Shown one piece after another: positions 15,391 to 35,582 of a DNA stretch of 35,582 bases (positions are counted from its first letter, which is position 1; every line of letters starts with the position of its first letter). The stretch covers positions 1 through 35,582 of the IMG/VR virus record IMGVR_UViG_3300024507_000280; one strand, given 5' to 3'. The translations under genes were made by a program, and so were the position numbers. The stretch is from a virus. A model generated the notes under the pieces. That model worked only from the letters and a program-made list of their open reading frames with translations, searched no databases and was not told where the DNA came from.

Positions 15391-15419
15391 ATTATAGCAC
15401 CGAAATGTACTTATGTCAA
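15391..15419 (-). promoter_or_regulatory. Consensus sigma70-type promoter
   Basis: Minus strand TTGACA, 17-base spacer, TATAAT: a perfect match to both hexamers. The -35 overlaps the end region of the upstream radical SAM gene; the leader to the TTG start is about 25 bases. Confidence 0.88.
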
Positions 15420-16781
15420 GCTCTTGCATTCAGCATACAGCTCCGCTAATTCTGGAAATGTGTCCAAAAAATTGGTATTTCTGCGTTTATCGTGCTCATC
15501 AAAAAACAAAGCAAAATCTTTTAGATAATTGGCTTCTCGTTGCTCACCAAACAAGTATTGGATTCGCTCCAATTTAGAAACTTCCCAACCGTGGAATCCT
15601 TTACCATCACAGTAATTTGACTCCATAAATTTTATTTGTTTTGCTATTTGAGCCTTGTATTCTAACGGAAGTATTCTAACACTCATCCATTTTGGATTAT
15701 CCAAATAAGGAATGTCTAAATTGATTGAACGATCCGGGTCGTAGTGTTTTAATTTCATTAACAATACATCTTTTAAAAATTCTGTGTATGAAGTAACAGA
15801 AAGAGCATTGTAAGTTGACATTATACTAAAGTTTGCTTTCGGCACTTCGCTTAAGAATCTATGACAATTGTCTAGCCATGTGTCGTAGTTCATGCCGTTT
15901 CTGATATATTCAGCTTTTGCGCCATACGCTTCGGCACTTGTAAACAACGTAAATCTTTTAACAGCATTTGTTTCTTGAATGATTTTAATCTTGTCAAGAA
16001 ATTTATCAAATAGTTTGTCAGGTAAAACACAATTACTGTTAATAGCAAGTTCTAAATTAGGGTTAGGGTTTTCAATAATATAGTCAAGAACTTTAAAGGT
16101 ATCTTTACTCATTAAAGGCTCACCACCTGTGATACGGAATGTATGAAGTGTTGGATAAATTTCCGGCCACCATTTCCAAAATGCTTCAACATATGGATTA
16201 TGTTCCTTGATAGGAATAGGCATTTTACCTTGATGCTTAGTGTGTTCTAAATTATTGTATTGAAGTGTAGTAGGATACCCACCAAATTTTTCAATTTCTT
16301 CCATCCACTTGCTAGAAATGTGTGGACTACAATAGGCACACTTAAAGTTACAAGCATGACTAAAACTAACTTCAAGATAAGTTGGCTTTATGTTATGTTC
16401 CCAGCCTGCTTCCATCACATCAAAATAACGAGACTTGCCTGCCCATTCGTCTGTGCTTTTATAGATCCTATCACTAAAGATATCTGAATCGGTTGGCGCA
16501 GAGTCTTCAACTTGCCAGCAAAAATGACACTCTTCTGGTCTACTACCAGTCATCATCATTTTACGTTGTTCTTTTTTAAACTTTGTATTGTGTAAAGCAC
16601 TAGGATCCTCTAAAATTTCTTCTAAAGGAATTTGATGTGTATTTGGATGATGGCAACTATGTGTATGTCCGTTTTGCAAATGCAAAGTGACTTGAAGCCA
16701 CTTTGCAAGACACATACCAGGACCGGTTCGATCTAATATTGTTTTAGCTTTTCGAAGCCAAATGATTCTTTCATCTTTCAT
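15411..16781 (-). CDS. Radical SAM protein (twitch-type)
   Basis: A 456-aa protein. The radical SAM motif CNFKCAYC (Cys144, Cys148, Cys151) binds the catalytic 4Fe-4S cluster, and RITGGEPLM is the SAM-binding GGE motif. Upstream of the barrel, Cys24, Cys43, Cys85 and Cys88 with CHHP- and CHFCW-type surroundings resemble the auxiliary cluster segment of twitch-domain radical SAM proteins. The substrate is unknown. The ATG at 16781 is chosen because it forms an ATGA overlap with the previous gene; the open frame extends only to a TTG two codons earlier. Proteins of this kind recur in T4-like marine phages. Confidence 0.88.
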   Translation of the reverse strand: MKDERIIWLRKAKTILDRTGPGMCLAKWLQVTLHLQNGHTHSCHHPNTHQIPLEEILEDPSALHNTKFKKEQRKMMMTGSRPEECHFCWQVEDSAPTDSDIFSDRIYKSTDEWAGKSRYFDVMEAGWEHNIKPTYLEVSFSHACNFKCAYCSPHISSKWMEEIEKFGGYPTTLQYNNLEHTKHQGKMPIPIKEHNPYVEAFWKWWPEIYPTLHTFRITGGEPLMSKDTFKVLDYIIENPNPNLELAINSNCVLPDKLFDKFLDKIKIIQETNAVKRFTLFTSAEAYGAKAEYIRNGMNYDTWLDNCHRFLSEVPKANFSIMSTYNALSVTSYTEFLKDVLLMKLKHYDPDRSINLDIPYLDNPKWMSVRILPLEYKAQIAKQIKFMESNYCDGKGFHGWEVSKLERIQYLFGEQREANYLKDFALFFDEHDKRRNTNFLDTFPELAELYAECKSLT

Positions 16782-17611
16782 GTCCAAAGACTCTCGCGAA
16801 TCTTGATAAGACGAATCATCATTTCTTCCTCTTCCTTAGTATATGCTTCTTCAATTTCTCGAAGTTTTTTATGTGCTTCATCGCTCATCTTTTTAAGTTC
16901 AGGGGTCTTATCGGCGCTACCAAAACTTAAACGACCACCGTTGGCCGCACGACTTGCTTCACAGTAAGCACTCCAACCACTGGCATCGTACGCATCAGGG
17001 CGATTGCGATATGTCACAGTCCACCAAGTATAAAGCTCGATAATTTCTTTGGCGGCCTTGGCTTGATAAGTTGGTTCAGCTAGATGTTTTTCACCTTCGT
17101 CAAGGAACTCTTCGTTGGTTAATGTAGTAGCCCAGCGTAGATATTCAAGCCCAGCTTCTGGGCAACGCCATGTACGCCAACGCAACCAACCTTTACGGTA
17201 CCATGGAACATTGAACTTAGTCTTAGCTTCATCACTCCAAATGCAGTGATGCCACGCTTGTTCTATTTCAACAAAATCCACAAGCTCGTTGAACAAACAA
17301 GGAAGAAAGCGATTGCTAACGTCGCTCCAATTACCAGGTTTAATGTCTCGAGGATGTGCGGTAAGACGATGGCTGTGACTAACCCAGCGATTATTAATAT
17401 AATAGCGTATGTCATTTAGACGATCCGGAATGTAATAAACAAATTTTTGAAGATAGTCGAGTCCTTCTTCGGCAATCCACCAACGAATAGGATGTGCGGC
17501 TTTTGCACGATCTTCCCAGTCGTTCCATTCTTCACTGGTGCCGCACTTGAGCTTTGGTGTGCCACGCAACCAATCCGCAAACGGTCCGATTGTCCAATAA
17601 TGACTACGCAT
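16778..17611 (-). CDS. Trp-rich conserved unknown coupled to radical SAM gene
   Basis: A 277-aa protein with 19 Trp (about 7%), many Tyr and His, and a charged C-terminal helix (EEAYTKEEEEMMIRLIKIRE). No signal peptide or membrane span is seen. It ends in an ATGA overlap with the radical SAM gene and starts 2 bases after the BI-1-like gene's stop. Coupling makes it a candidate partner or substrate protein of the radical SAM enzyme; Trp/Tyr-rich proteins are possible radical targets, but this is speculation. Family not recognised. Confidence 0.8.
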   Translation of the reverse strand: MRSHYWTIGPFADWLRGTPKLKCGTSEEWNDWEDRAKAAHPIRWWIAEEGLDYLQKFVYYIPDRLNDIRYYINNRWVSHSHRLTAHPRDIKPGNWSDVSNRFLPCLFNELVDFVEIEQAWHHCIWSDEAKTKFNVPWYRKGWLRWRTWRCPEAGLEYLRWATTLTNEEFLDEGEKHLAEPTYQAKAAKEIIELYTWWTVTYRNRPDAYDASGWSAYCEASRAANGGRLSFGSADKTPELKKMSDEAHKKLREIEEAYTKEEEEMMIRLIKIRESLWT

Positions 17612-31257: not shown

Positions 31258-31370
31258 TGGTGTAGACGGTAGGATTCGAACCTACAAAGCCGTCATATTG
31301 ACTAGGCCCAGGCCCCCTGTGGCCGTTCGTTACACCACAGGGGAGGTCTACCAATTCCACTCACGTCTAC
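31258..31370 (-). tRNA. tRNA-Leu-like gene with atypical anticodon arm
   Basis: A 113-base RNA. Acceptor GTAGACG pairs with CGTCTAC, followed by A and encoded CCA. The T arm is GTAGG-TTCGAAT-CCTAC. The D arm GTGGAATTGGTAGAC is the bacterial tRNA-Leu form, and a variable-arm hairpin (GTCA-ATA-TGAC) follows. Instead of a 5-bp stem and 7-base loop, the anticodon region is a 9-bp perfect hairpin, CCCCTGTGG/CCACAGGGG (31335-31343 with 31314-31322), with a 12-base loop TGTAACGAACGG. The gene is about 25 bases longer than usual. No standard anticodon can be assigned; the loop contains TAA and GTA. It may be a degenerate tRNA, one with an intron-like insert, or a tRNA mimic. Confidence 0.72.
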
Positions 31371-31446: not shown

Positions 31447-32415
31447 ATGAATTTTAACCAAATACCTTTTGAAAATATTGTTCGTTTTGGACAGAGAACT
31501 ATGTTGGACCGACCACTATTTTCTGTGAGTTGGATACTCGGACGTTTTTGTAATTATAATTGCAGCTACTGTTGGCCTTATGCACGAAGTGATAGTGTTG
31601 ACCATCGAACACTGGAAGTCTACACTTCTGTAGTTGATGAAATAAAACGACAAGCAAGAGCTAATGGTTTTAACGAATTTCACTGGAGTTTTAGTGGCGG
31701 AGAGCCAACTGCTTATAAAAATCTTTTGGATCTAGTACAGCACTTGGACGAAAAAGAAAGTTCGTACCAAAGTATCCATATGACTACTAATTTAAGTCCA
31801 GGAAGCAAATGGTGGAAAACTTGGTGTGATAAAACAGGACTGTTACAACGTAGAAGTATAACTGCCAGCTTCCACGACGAGTTCGCTAAAGAACAAGAGT
31901 TTGGCGATAAGTGTTTACAGTTACAATACGAACTAGTTCATGTTACTATTAACCAAGTAATGGTTCCTGAAAAGTTTTATGAACTGTATGAGCGTATGGA
32001 ACGTTTCCATAAACGTGGAATTAATGTAACTCTTAAACCACAAAGTGATCCAACTGCTAGTCATATAGTAGACGGATATACCGATGACATGATTAAACTA
32101 ATGCAAGAAGGATTCCCACAAAAGTCGCAAGGAGAAGAAGTTTATCAAATTCGCCTAAATGACGGAGTGAAAGACTACTACTTTGACCAAGCAGAAAGAT
32201 TTAATGCTTTTGGATTTAATAAATTTCAAAATTGGACTTGCAATAGTGGTTATCAAAGTGTTATAATTAGAGGTAACGAAGTTAAGCGTAGTTACAGTTG
32301 CCATGACGAACCGTTAGGTACACTAGAACACTTTGAATTATTTAAGGAACCTAGACGCTGTATTACACCTACTTGTGTAAGCTCAGCGGATAGTAAAATA
32401 CCAAAATGCAAATAG
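31447..32415 (+). CDS. Radical SAM protein with C-terminal Cys cluster
   Basis: A 322-aa protein. CNYNCSYC (Cys35, Cys39, Cys42) binds the catalytic cluster and SFSGGEPTAY is the SAM-contacting GGE motif. The last 60 residues hold five Cys (NWTC, SYSCHD, RRCITPTC, PKC), an auxiliary-cluster-like end as in SPASM/twitch enzymes. First gene of a plus-strand unit that overlaps the next by 10 bases. Substrate unknown; close relatives modify peptides, RNA or sugars. Confidence 0.88.
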   Translation: MNFNQIPFENIVRFGQRTMLDRPLFSVSWILGRFCNYNCSYCWPYARSDSVDHRTLEVYTSVVDEIKRQARANGFNEFHWSFSGGEPTAYKNLLDLVQHLDEKESSYQSIHMTTNLSPGSKWWKTWCDKTGLLQRRSITASFHDEFAKEQEFGDKCLQLQYELVHVTINQVMVPEKFYELYERMERFHKRGINVTLKPQSDPTASHIVDGYTDDMIKLMQEGFPQKSQGEEVYQIRLNDGVKDYYFDQAERFNAFGFNKFQNWTCNSGYQSVIIRGNEVKRSYSCHDEPLGTLEHFELFKEPRRCITPTCVSSADSKIPKCK

Positions 32416-33023
32416 ACTTAGAACATTTACACTACTGGATGTGTGCCATTCGTGAAAGCAAAGATCCTATGCGTACTCTTGATGCTTTCTGGCAAGGGCA
32501 GTTAAAAAGTAAAGACTGGTTAATTGAAAACTTGGTCTATTACATCTACCCAGAACGTAACAAGGAATTAGACTTTCCAGTAAGTGTTGACATACACGGA
32601 GGTTGGGTAGGAGTTTTAGCCAGTATGTTGTTTCAATCTGATCTTCCTATCAGCAACATTCGTAGCGTTGATATAGATCCTAACTGCGAGTCTGTTGCTA
32701 CGATGATGAACAAAAAAGAAGAAATAGAAGGACGTTTTAGAGCAGTAACAGCTGATATGTGTACACTACGCAGTGATGCTGATATTATTATCAATACCAG
32801 TTGCGAACACATTACACAAGATCAATATGATCTGTGGCTCAGTGGACATCCTCACAACAGTTTACTAGTTCTCCAGAGCAATAATTACAACATTCCGGAG
32901 CACGTTAGAATTGCCAACGACTTAGAAGAATTCAAACAACAATGTCATGTCAAAGTGTTATGGGCAAGAGAACTAGTTTTACCTTTATACACAAGGTTTA
33001 TGATTATAGGTCAAAATGTATAA
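32406..33023 (+). CDS. SAM-dependent methyltransferase-like protein
   Basis: A 205-aa protein with a Rossmann-type pattern: DIHGGWVGVLASML (glycine-rich SAM loop), IRSVDIDPNCES (acidic residue binding ribose), VTADMCTL and INTSCEHI (motif IV region). This is a class I methyltransferase fold, though some loops are non-standard. It is sandwiched between two radical SAM genes with overlaps of 10 and 8 bases, so it probably works on the same substrate. Confidence 0.75.
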   Translation: MQIDLEHLHYWMCAIRESKDPMRTLDAFWQGQLKSKDWLIENLVYYIYPERNKELDFPVSVDIHGGWVGVLASMLFQSDLPISNIRSVDIDPNCESVATMMNKKEEIEGRFRAVTADMCTLRSDADIIINTSCEHITQDQYDLWLSGHPHNSLLVLQSNNYNIPEHVRIANDLEEFKQQCHVKVLWARELVLPLYTRFMIIGQNV

Positions 33024-33987
33024 TTTAAACCAAATCAAAACAGTTCATTTGGAAGTAACTAGCCGATGCCAGGCTACTTGTCCTATGTGTGCAAGGAATA
33101 TTCAAGGGTTAGATAATCCTTGGTTAGAATTAGATGAAATTACTCTTGATCAATTCAAACAATGGTTTCCTGTTGATTTTATAAAACAGTTAGATAGATT
33201 GTATATGTGTGGTAACTTAGGTGATCCTATTGTTGCAAAAGACACACTGAAGATTTTTCAATACTTAAGAGAAACAAATCCAACTATTTCTTTAAGCATG
33301 AATACAAACGGCTCTGCAAAGAGTTGGCATTTCTGGAAAGGACTTGCTGGATTAAAAGTACATGTTCGATTTGGTATTGATGGGTTAATTGATACTCATA
33401 GTTTATATCGCATTGGTACAGACTGGGTAAAAATTATAGACAATGCTAGACTGTTTATTAATGCAGGAGGTGAAGCAACTTGGGATATGCTGGTATTTGA
33501 ACATAACGAGCACCAGGTAGAAATTTGTAGAGAATTAAGTGAACAGTTAGGTTTTAAAAACTTTGTATCTAAAAATACATCTCGTTTTAGAGAGGACAAG
33601 TTGCAGGTGCTAAACAAAGATGGCACAACTAGTCATGTATTATTTCCTTCTATTAAAAGCAAAAAAATATCTAAGTTACTTGGAACAGACGAACCTGCAG
33701 AAATTTCCTGTAAAGTTTTGAATGAGAAAAGCATATACATTAATGCTAAAGGACAAGTGATTCCTTGTTGCTGGCTTGATTATAATGCTATGTTGCCTAT
33801 ACACCCATCTCGAGTAGACATGTTGGATAAAGGTATTAAGTTTGAAACTTTAAAAGAAAAAACACTAGATGAAATTTTCGGTGAAAAAACATTTACCACT
33901 ATTAGAGATAGCTGGGGTACTAGTCCAGTCCGCGAATGTAGTAGACAATGCGGAAAAATTGATAAATTCAATGAGCAGTTCAATTAG
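33016..33987 (+). CDS. Radical SAM / SPASM protein
   Basis: A 323-aa protein. CQATCPMC (Cys18, Cys22, Cys25) starts the barrel. LYMCGNLGDPIVAKD replaces the canonical GGEP with a GNLGDP form, as in SPASM enzymes of the phage type. The C-terminal Cys set (ISCKVLN, VIPCCWLD, RECSRQCGK) fits SPASM auxiliary clusters. SPASM enzymes usually modify peptides or proteins. The gene is followed by the cold-shock/oxygenase fusion after a 5-base gap. Confidence 0.88.
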   Translation: MYNLNQIKTVHLEVTSRCQATCPMCARNIQGLDNPWLELDEITLDQFKQWFPVDFIKQLDRLYMCGNLGDPIVAKDTLKIFQYLRETNPTISLSMNTNGSAKSWHFWKGLAGLKVHVRFGIDGLIDTHSLYRIGTDWVKIIDNARLFINAGGEATWDMLVFEHNEHQVEICRELSEQLGFKNFVSKNTSRFREDKLQVLNKDGTTSHVLFPSIKSKKISKLLGTDEPAEISCKVLNEKSIYINAKGQVIPCCWLDYNAMLPIHPSRVDMLDKGIKFETLKEKTLDEIFGEKTFTTIRDSWGTSPVRECSRQCGKIDKFNEQFN

Positions 33988-33992
33988 GATAA

Positions 33993-34826
33993 ATGATGGA
34001 AACCGGAATAGTAAAATGGTACAATGATGCTAAAAAGTATGGCTTCATTACTGCCGACAAAGATAATGCAAACATCTACGCAGAACGATGGGATATTAAA
34101 AATGATCCGCAAACTATGTTTGAATTGCAACGTGTAGAATTTGACAGGATTGAAACTGATACAGGTCTGAAAGCAATCAACATTAACGTTATTCAACTTG
34201 AAGAACATAAGATGCTAGAGCTTCCTCGTATTAGTGTTTTTGATAACTTATTAACTGCTGAGTTTTGTCAACGTTTAATAGAAAAACATTCTCAAGCAGG
34301 AATGAACCCTAACAGCGGTTATCAAAGCCGTGTTGAATCCTATGCACAAGTTACAGAAGAAGTAGAGGATCGGGGAATTAGTTTAGGAGTTGATCCTTAC
34401 GATTACGATGTATTGGCAACAGCTATTGTGCAAGCCGCACGAATTCCTTATAGTCACATAGAAGCCATCGATGTATACAATTACGAAACAGGACAGTTTC
34501 TTGCATACCATCATGATTACCCTTATGATCCAAGACAGATTAATTATTACAAGTACGGCGGTGACAGAGTAGGAACTGGAATATTCTATCTAAATGACAA
34601 TTTCAAAGGCGGCGAAACTTACTTTCCTAAACACAACGTAACTGTAAAACCAAAGACTGGCTCTTTCTTGTATTTTCAACAATGTTATGATGAAGCAACA
34701 AATTGGTCAACTATTCATGAAAGTACAAAAATAACTTCAGGCACTAAATGGATTGCCAGTTGCTTTTTTAGTGACAGACCTCGAGTAGGCTGGAGTCCAA
34801 GAGACCATTTGTATGATAATAAGTGA
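33993..34826 (+). CDS. Cold-shock domain fused to 2OG-Fe(II) prolyl-4-hydroxylase-type oxygenase
   Basis: A 277-aa two-domain protein. Residues 2-68 are a cold-shock domain: METGIVKWYNDAKKYGFITA carries the GIVKW start and RNP1-like KKYGFI, while RNP2 is degenerate (IYAERWDI). Residues 75-265 are a dioxygenase of the P4H type: LAYHHDYPYD supplies the HxD iron ligands, GGETYFPKHNVTVKPKTGSF is the core, and STIHESTKITSGTKW supplies the distal His and the 2OG-binding Lys. A nucleic-acid-binding domain on a hydroxylase suggests an RNA-, ribosome- or DNA-associated substrate. A second ATG follows directly at 33996. Confidence 0.9.
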   Translation: MMETGIVKWYNDAKKYGFITADKDNANIYAERWDIKNDPQTMFELQRVEFDRIETDTGLKAININVIQLEEHKMLELPRISVFDNLLTAEFCQRLIEKHSQAGMNPNSGYQSRVESYAQVTEEVEDRGISLGVDPYDYDVLATAIVQAARIPYSHIEAIDVYNYETGQFLAYHHDYPYDPRQINYYKYGGDRVGTGIFYLNDNFKGGETYFPKHNVTVKPKTGSFLYFQQCYDEATNWSTIHESTKITSGTKWIASCFFSDRPRVGWSPRDHLYDNK

Positions 34827-35499
34827 TTGGAAACCTTTTTACAAATATGACAATGACGGTACTCCTAATTGCATGTCGCAACAAACATATGAGCCGTTAA
34901 TAAGTCCTGACGGAAAAACATTCTGCGCCAACTACGATTGGCAAAACAAATATCAACGTATGTGGCAACCCAATCGTGTTGGTTACACAGACGAAGTTGT
35001 TGATTATTTTTTCTTTAAAGAAATAGAATATGCACAAAAGTTTAGTAATCGTTCATGGGCTCCTGAAATAGTTGATATAGACCGTGTGAGTAAACGAATA
35101 TTTTATAAATGGTACGGACCAACTTGTAACGAAATACTCTATACAGGCAACGCACTTCCAAGCGATTGGAAACAACAAATTCGCAACATTATGATAGATG
35201 CATACTCTAGTGGAGTTTACAAACTTACTATGTATCCTCATTGTCATTTTTATGACAGTGATGGCAGGATGCATGCCATAGATATGTACGGATGCGTAGA
35301 GGTCGATGATCCTTTTATTGAAGCCAAATACATGGATGGAATTATACATAGTACAGCTCAATTTAGATTAGATGAAACGGGTGATTTAGTTAACGGTAAG
35401 TATAATTTAGAAACTATGTTTAAGCAATCACTTGGCGTACATGTTAAATGGGGCAAAGAAGATATGCGTTTTATATATGAGGAAATGTTCAATGCCTAA
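34813..35499 (+). CDS. Putative protein-kinase-like-fold protein
   Basis: A 228-aa protein. Late in the sequence, PHCHFYDSDGRMHAIDMYGC mimics the kinase catalytic loop plus DFG strand (HxxNxxxxDDGxxxxIDxxG), and upstream FFFKEIEYAQKFSNRSWAPE and IFYKWYGPTCNEIL look like an N-lobe helix and hinge. Classical Lys/Asp residues are partly missing, so it may be a pseudokinase or an aminoglycoside-kinase-like enzyme. It overlaps the oxygenase gene by 14 bases and the next gene by 8. The assignment is tentative. Confidence 0.65.
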   Translation: MIISDWKPFYKYDNDGTPNCMSQQTYEPLISPDGKTFCANYDWQNKYQRMWQPNRVGYTDEVVDYFFFKEIEYAQKFSNRSWAPEIVDIDRVSKRIFYKWYGPTCNEILYTGNALPSDWKQQIRNIMIDAYSSGVYKLTMYPHCHFYDSDGRMHAIDMYGCVEVDDPFIEAKYMDGIIHSTAQFRLDETGDLVNGKYNLETMFKQSLGVHVKWGKEDMRFIYEEMFNA

Positions 35500-35582
35500 A
35501 AGAGTTGGATCTACACTAGGATTAATTGACTGGGAAAAAGTTATAGCAGACATACAACCTCATGCCGGAGACTTTAATAGTG
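35492..35582 (+). CDS. Start of a further cassette gene (cut by the window)
   Basis: ATG at 35492 with GAGGA upstream; 30 codons are visible, MPKRVGSTLGLIDWEKVIAD and so on. It overlaps the kinase-like gene's stop by 8 bases, so it belongs to the same unit. Too short to classify. Confidence 0.65.
   Translation, partial: MPKRVGSTLGLIDWEKVIADIQPHAGDFNS

Follow-up and report, generated by a model that had tools for sequence, protein, structure and literature searches.

A near-invariant radical SAM–methyltransferase gene pair at the left end of a hypervariable radical SAM island in a large uncultured bacteriophage from fresh water

The subject of this work is a gene block at the right end of the IMG/VR viral record IMGVR_UViG_3300024507_000280, whose 35,582 bases were analysed in full and are called the window below. 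The record comes from a large freshwater bacteriophage that has not been cultured, and the block (positions 31447-35582) forms the left end of an island of radical S-adenosylmethionine (SAM) enzymes that is hypervariable. It consists of five complete, tightly packed plus-strand genes, which we call A to E, and of a truncated sixth gene, F, represented by its first 30 codons. Gene A (31447-32415) encodes a radical SAM enzyme, B (32406-33023, overlapping A by 10 nucleotides, nt) a protein with the predicted fold of a class I SAM methyltransferase, and C (33016-33987, overlapping B by 8 nt) a radical SAM/SPASM protein, which is the island's second radical SAM and differs between loci. They are followed, after a gap of 5 nt, by D (33993-34826), a cold-shock domain fused to a 2-oxoglutarate (2OG) oxygenase of the prolyl 4-hydroxylase (P4H) type, by E (34813-35499, overlapping D by 14 nt), for which a protein-kinase-like fold is predicted, and by the 5' end of the 2OG-oxygenase-like gene F (35492-35582), which is cut by the contig end. 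Just left of A, a tRNA-like RNA encoded on the minus strand (31258-31370) marks the border of the island, and from 31240 down to 8.8 kb almost all genes lie on the minus strand. A sequence-only reading of the window had described this strand switch and a plus-strand block of overlapping or nearly touching modification genes, and it had the genes and their coordinates right.

The main finding of the comparison with other viral sequences is that A and B stay together while the genes around them change. With A as the query 244 viral stretches matched and the 80 best were retained, and the B query matched at least 588; because the search used exact peptide patterns and ranked the matches on similarity, the kept sets are biased toward close relatives. 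Locus counts were taken over 97 distinct A sequences. B lies downstream of A, on the same strand, in all 94 distinct loci holding both genes, and the same pairing was recovered when B served as the query. Of 89 A-B pairs, 48 had the two genes side by side, and 41 carried inserted sequence between them. Where at least 6 kb was available to the right of A (47 loci), B was always present, a C-type radical SAM gene was found in 40 loci, a twitch-type radical SAM gene (T1) in 35, E in 14 and D in 10. Conservation follows the same pattern, with mean pairwise identities of 83% for A and 75% for B, compared to 51% for D and 49% for E. Judged from the presence, order and conservation of A and B and from the turnover of their neighbours, which is strong to the right of A, these two genes form a near-invariant core, whereas C and D-E-F are exchangeable cassettes.

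D-E-F is an ordered cassette of its own: among 36 copies of E, F follows in 24 and D precedes in 22; the remaining copies lie next to other genes or are truncated by the contig end. The gene order that the sequence-only reading had proposed to look for in other phages is conserved where it could be assessed, but not in the form of one joint six-gene system, as C and D-E-F, the latter sometimes extended by a further gene G, come and go beside A-B. Independent scattering of the genes in related phages, named in advance as an argument against a common system, was observed for the cassettes and not for the A-B pair. Base changes in A fall mainly in the third codon position (e.g. 32/19/110 for the three positions), showing that the gene is under purifying selection; together with the ordered recurrence in 97 distinct loci this indicates that the gene block is not a product of chance. 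A motif resembling a T4 late promoter upstream of A was not conserved among the loci.

The domain assignments of A and C are clear at the level of the superfamily. A matches Pfam Radical_SAM with 46.7 bits (5e-12; cut-off 29.5 bits), and it has an invariant CxxxCxxC motif (C35, C39, C42) and the sequence SGGEP. Four C-terminal cysteines (C265, C285, C305, C310) are invariant among the relatives and are likely to hold one auxiliary Fe-S cluster. C is above the cut-offs for both Radical_SAM (29.7 bits, 8.5e-7) and SPASM (29.3 bits, 1e-6; cut-off 21.5 bits), its CxxxCxxC motif is invariant and the C-terminal cysteines of the SPASM part are conserved, even though C proteins of different loci are only about 35-88% identical. 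The auxiliary cysteines noticed earlier in both proteins are therefore borne out; as to the count of two radical SAM proteins, it holds for the block, and there is a third such gene elsewhere in the window. Attempts to place A in a named family failed. The prokaryotic viperin model gave 36.8 bits with the N-terminal core only, compared to a whole-protein cut-off of 180 bits, the PADLOC pVip match was restricted to residues 27-105, and other named radical SAM families matched just the core, far under their cut-offs. Beyond generic domains, PADLOC found nothing fitting a defence system, and neither A nor C reached the cut-off of a known tRNA-modifying or DNA-modifying family or of a curated maturase model for ribosomally synthesized and post-translationally modified peptides (RiPPs).

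B and E have no Pfam family match, and their assignments come from predicted structures. The model of B (mean predicted local distance difference test score, pLDDT, 92.6) matched methyltransferases in the PDB from 4.6e-10, with template modeling (TM) scores, by query, of up to 0.68, and the family shares the motifs VDIHGGWVG, IDIDP and INTSCEHI; the proposed methyltransferase identity thus agrees with the modelled class I fold. E (pLDDT 91.8) has no sequence match in the PDB, and its model resembles Ark1, WbdD, Rio2 and protein kinases at about 1e-4 and a TM score of about 0.44, consistent with a protein-kinase-like fold. The family has Thr, Ser or Ala at the position of the catalytic Asp of the kinase HxD motif (the motif register was read by eye in the alignment), and a DFG-like Asp157 is kept. 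The replaced Asp makes it improbable that E works as an ordinary kinase, so of the earlier label "kinase-like" the modelled fold stands and the catalytic residue does not.

In D, the predicted fusion was confirmed by matches to CSD (3.7e-12) and 2OG-FeII_Oxy_3 (1.3e-10). The ligands of iron and 2OG are kept (HxD with H173 and D175, H242, K252), and the D profile matches the Bacillus anthracis P4H (PDB 5hv0) with 101.8 bits (3.8e-28). The N-terminal cold-shock domain is present in most relatives, not in all. In one variant (L077 12517-13251, identical to L287 4701-5435) an apparent glutathione-peroxidase-like domain replaces the hydroxylase as the fusion partner of the D-family cold-shock domain, and the hydroxylase is a separate gene. 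F is complete in contigs identical over the block (e.g. L003:7849-8445); its family conserves the AspH-like HxD...H and the Arg of 2OG oxygenases and weakly matches beta-hydroxylases.

Contigs identical over the block also allowed the rightward extension suggested by the sequence-only reading: beyond F they continue with a second F-like gene, a gene for 60 amino acids (aa) and five more radical SAM genes. The 60-aa gene (L003 8956-9138 and relatives) was seen in 11 loci; its product has a conserved MEIQRQNVVLSN motif, the C-terminal residues DTPA and no cysteine. Eleven other records contain 2 to 19 radical SAM genes, the lowest number belonging to a record cut just past B, and the highest, 19 and 13, to records of 281 kb and 71 kb, respectively. 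Other cassette genes encode NAD epimerases, a class III aminotransferase, a dehydroquinate (DHQ)-synthase-like cyclase, RuBisCO-like and adenosine-phosphosulfate (APS)-kinase-like proteins and Asp/Arg hydroxylases; SGNH-like, amidinotransferase-like and desaturase-like proteins were recognized by reading the sequences, and weak QueC/PP-loop matches also occur. Three loci (L068, L070, L072) represent a variant of the island, in which RuBisCO-like, DHQ-synthase-like cyclase, short-chain-dehydrogenase/reductase-like and kinase-like genes lie directly upstream of A. Five F-like 2OG-oxygenase-like genes stand close together in L290 (13843-17488), which suggests amplification. The 281-kb record (L286) has a second cluster at 142-161 kb, far from its A-B island, with five radical SAM genes, SGNH-like proteins and a 769-aa protein that shares a domain with our protein cluster 53. 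The T4-type gp23 of this record is 67-72% identical to those of PA5oct-like phages, Vibrio phage 2.275.O and Sinorhizobium phage Phosso, and these cultured relatives differ in radical SAM content (no match in the PA5oct-like phage PAC2 or in 2.275.O, four in Phosso). The island is therefore a variable feature of a jumbo T4-like, gp23-bearing phage lineage, which probably acquired it.

In the window itself, the minus-strand genes to the left of the border include those for a DNA ligase, ClpP, an SPFH protein, a QueD-like protein and tail-fibre-like proteins. The third radical SAM gene (15411-16787, minus strand) lies near the tail-fibre-like genes and has relatives in other loci.

The RNA at the island border resembles a tRNA in having a 7-bp acceptor stem, a T arm, an encoded CCA end and a long extra arm. 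In the place of the anticodon arm there is a variable hairpin, reduced to a UUCG or CUUG tetraloop in its shortest versions. Directly upstream lies a sigma70-like promoter (TTGAC...TATAAT-like). Among 76 distinct sequences, in an alignment that was fitted to the same structure model that was used for counting the pairs, 99.2% of the cells pair and both-sided changes occur in 8 of the 16 pairs, far above slid controls; the acceptor and T stems covary. ARAGORN did not call a tRNA in the window and found inconsistent anticodons in the relatives, and the only Rfam match was tmRNA with 15.3 bits, compared to a gathering score of 47. An intron-containing tRNA was also considered and rejected, as the calls were inconsistent and one relative has the UUCG tetraloop only. 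Most records searched had one match to this RNA of at least 100 bits, and the other matches, of at most 46 bits, were taken to be ordinary tRNAs. Its 3' signature occurs in at least 120 viral stretches, and blastn against cultured phages gave no match beyond 30 nt. When the RNA was located first (80 loci), A was present in 68, in 67 of them at a distance of 98-163 nt. About ten RNA loci have no adjacent A (of nine such records tested, two have an A of 71-72% identity at another place) and about 20 A loci have no border RNA, which weakens the idea that it is an obligate partner of A. For this reason we regard the RNA as part of the phage backbone at the border of the island, and we give a functional link to the island a small chance. 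By the comparison with Rfam it is a structured RNA that had no family above cut-off and is brought to light here.

What could such an island do? The explanation we favour, tentatively and with a probability of about 0.42, is that a single small polar substrate is processed stepwise by its enzymes. From the observed gene content, order, conservation and modularity and from the folds we infer that the substrate is shared and small and that its modification is of benefit to the phage. It could be a sugar, an amino sugar or an amino-acid-derived group, either free or on the surface of the cell or the virion. A would activate a C-H bond, B would methylate, oxygenases of the D and F types would hydroxylate, and the other cassettes (epimerase, aminotransferase, amidinotransferase-like, sulfate-activating) would add further groups; the varied product might help the infected cell or the virion to escape competitors or defences. 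The invariance of A-B, while the neighbours come and go, points to one shared chemical target. A small polar group is favoured by the cassettes, most of which resemble small-molecule tailoring enzymes, and by the neighbours of B homologues in two bacterial contigs, one of which, a Mesorhizobium copy, stands beside glycosyltransferase-like genes. In the other contig (L089, from a Bdellovibrionales metagenome-assembled genome) a B homologue of 39% identity is accompanied by radical SAMs of the twitch type, by an aminotransferase-like gene and by a relative of cluster 53; this contig is either phage DNA that was binned wrongly or a counterpart of the island in bacteria. The abundance of radical SAM genes in long records, as opposed to their absence from two cultured gp23 relatives, is in line with this explanation, as are a weak match of the C profile to cytosylglucuronate decarboxylase in the PDB, the lack of a precursor peptide beside A and B and, by analogy, the radical SAMs of phage CP220, which are accompanied by amidinotransferase and nucleotide-sugar-transferase-like genes.

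Several observations weigh against stepwise tailoring of a small substrate. The pairing of A and B is strong, not absolute, as two records carry an A of 71-72% identity without B. Glycos_transf_2 was not found in the islands of the 12 records searched, so the argument for a glycan comes from genes of other types. D clearly belongs to the P4Hs, a family that acts on peptidyl proline, and its cold-shock domain hints at binding of a nucleic acid. The close relatives are, without exception, metagenome contigs of uncultured origin.

The properties of D lead to the first alternative, modification of a protein of the host translation apparatus or envelope, or of the virion, which would be hydroxylated by D and F, methylated by B and radically altered by A and C. 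The intact active site of D and the weak resemblance of F to beta-hydroxylases agree with this possibility, and radical SAM enzymes with auxiliary clusters often act on peptides. We nonetheless consider it somewhat unlikely, since no conserved target gene adjoins the core and the neighbouring cassettes encode small-molecule enzymes. Collagen-like tail fibres, considered as the P4H target, were dismissed, as collagen-like repeats were not found in the window or in the fetched phage loci, a single run being present in one bacterial contig.

It is also conceivable, but in our view unlikely, that there is no single pathway and that unrelated auxiliary enzymes gather at a hot spot of recombination next to a tRNA-like gene. 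This would account for the turnover to the right of A and for the groups of radical SAM genes without the core in the cultured Vibrio phage K566 and in Phosso. It would not explain why A and B are kept together through turnover and insertions, and why the same enzyme types recur and are amplified, with up to 19 radical SAMs and tandem F-like oxygenases.

Modification of a nucleic acid, either phage DNA with a hypermodified base or an RNA, possibly the adjacent tRNA-like one, is slightly less probable still. The cold-shock domain of D, the QueD-like gene in the window and the weak QueC/PP-loop matches would fit, as would the short distance between the RNA and A in most loci, but A and C reach no relevant family cut-off and RNA and A are separable. 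A route to hypermodified DNA through a thymidylate-synthase-type enzyme finds no support, as PF00303 matched in just one of 12 records, all of them genome fragments; a search for Tet_JBP (PF12851) matched none of the 12 records, but with the controls equally silent this says nothing either way.

RiPP maturation with an unrecognised precursor appears improbable, although enzymes of the types seen here (radical SAM/SPASM, twitch-type radical SAM, methyltransferase, oxygenase) are typical of the tailoring of such peptides and a conserved 60-aa gene comes after D-E-F-G in 11 loci. The precursor that, according to the sequence-only reading, might lie beyond position 35582 did not turn up: systematic clustering of small open reading frames around A/B in 89 loci gave no conserved candidate beside the core, and the 60-aa gene follows only the D-E-F-G cassette, has no cysteine and is missing from most A-B loci. 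That no curated maturase cut-off was reached argues in the same direction. Very improbable, finally, is a system uniting RNA, A-B core and cassettes, in which the host-charged RNA would carry an amino acid for tailoring into a modified aminoacyl product; the close and fixed RNA-A spacing in most loci would allow such an RNA-tethered line, but the two are occasionally separate. On the whole, the earlier observation of the gene block has been confirmed and its interpretation partly supported.

It is instructive to compare the island with known phage systems. Exchangeable radical SAM modules have already been reported, albeit unexplained. Timms et al. described swapped modules of five radical SAM genes with an amidinotransferase in the Campylobacter phages CP220 and CPt10 (PMC2853527), virulent distant relatives of T4 with 11-12 radical SAMs per genome, and in being a cluster of radical SAM genes swapped between related phages our island is of the same kind. 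The differences lie in the composition: in the cultured-phage collection the best A match was 22.6% (CP21) and B and E had no homologue, and the part of the report available to us describes no conserved A-B core or D-E-F cassette (PMC2853527). Aquatic T4-like phages are a second parallel, as a Tara genome has 12 radical SAM genes (PMC5332604) and pelagimyophages gain radical SAM cassettes in a hypervariable region (PMC7029224); in the portions of these papers at hand there is no mention of an invariant core, of a gene order or of partner genes, and by gp23 the 281-kb relative is nearer to the jumbo phages PA5oct, 2.275.O and Phosso. K566, with six radical SAM matches, and Phosso are likewise large and have clusters of radical SAM genes, some of them unannotated, but lack a B homologue. 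At the level of single proteins, D resembles the B. anthracis P4H in its catalytic domain and differs in the cold-shock domain that most relatives add to it. In the literature searched, the A-B core did not appear. Radical-SAM-rich phage modules have been reported since 2010 without explanation, and compared with them a fixed radical SAM/methyltransferase pair amid a dozen swapped enzymes offers a concrete two-gene starting point, in an island that shows the extent of unexplored enzymology in abundant aquatic phages.

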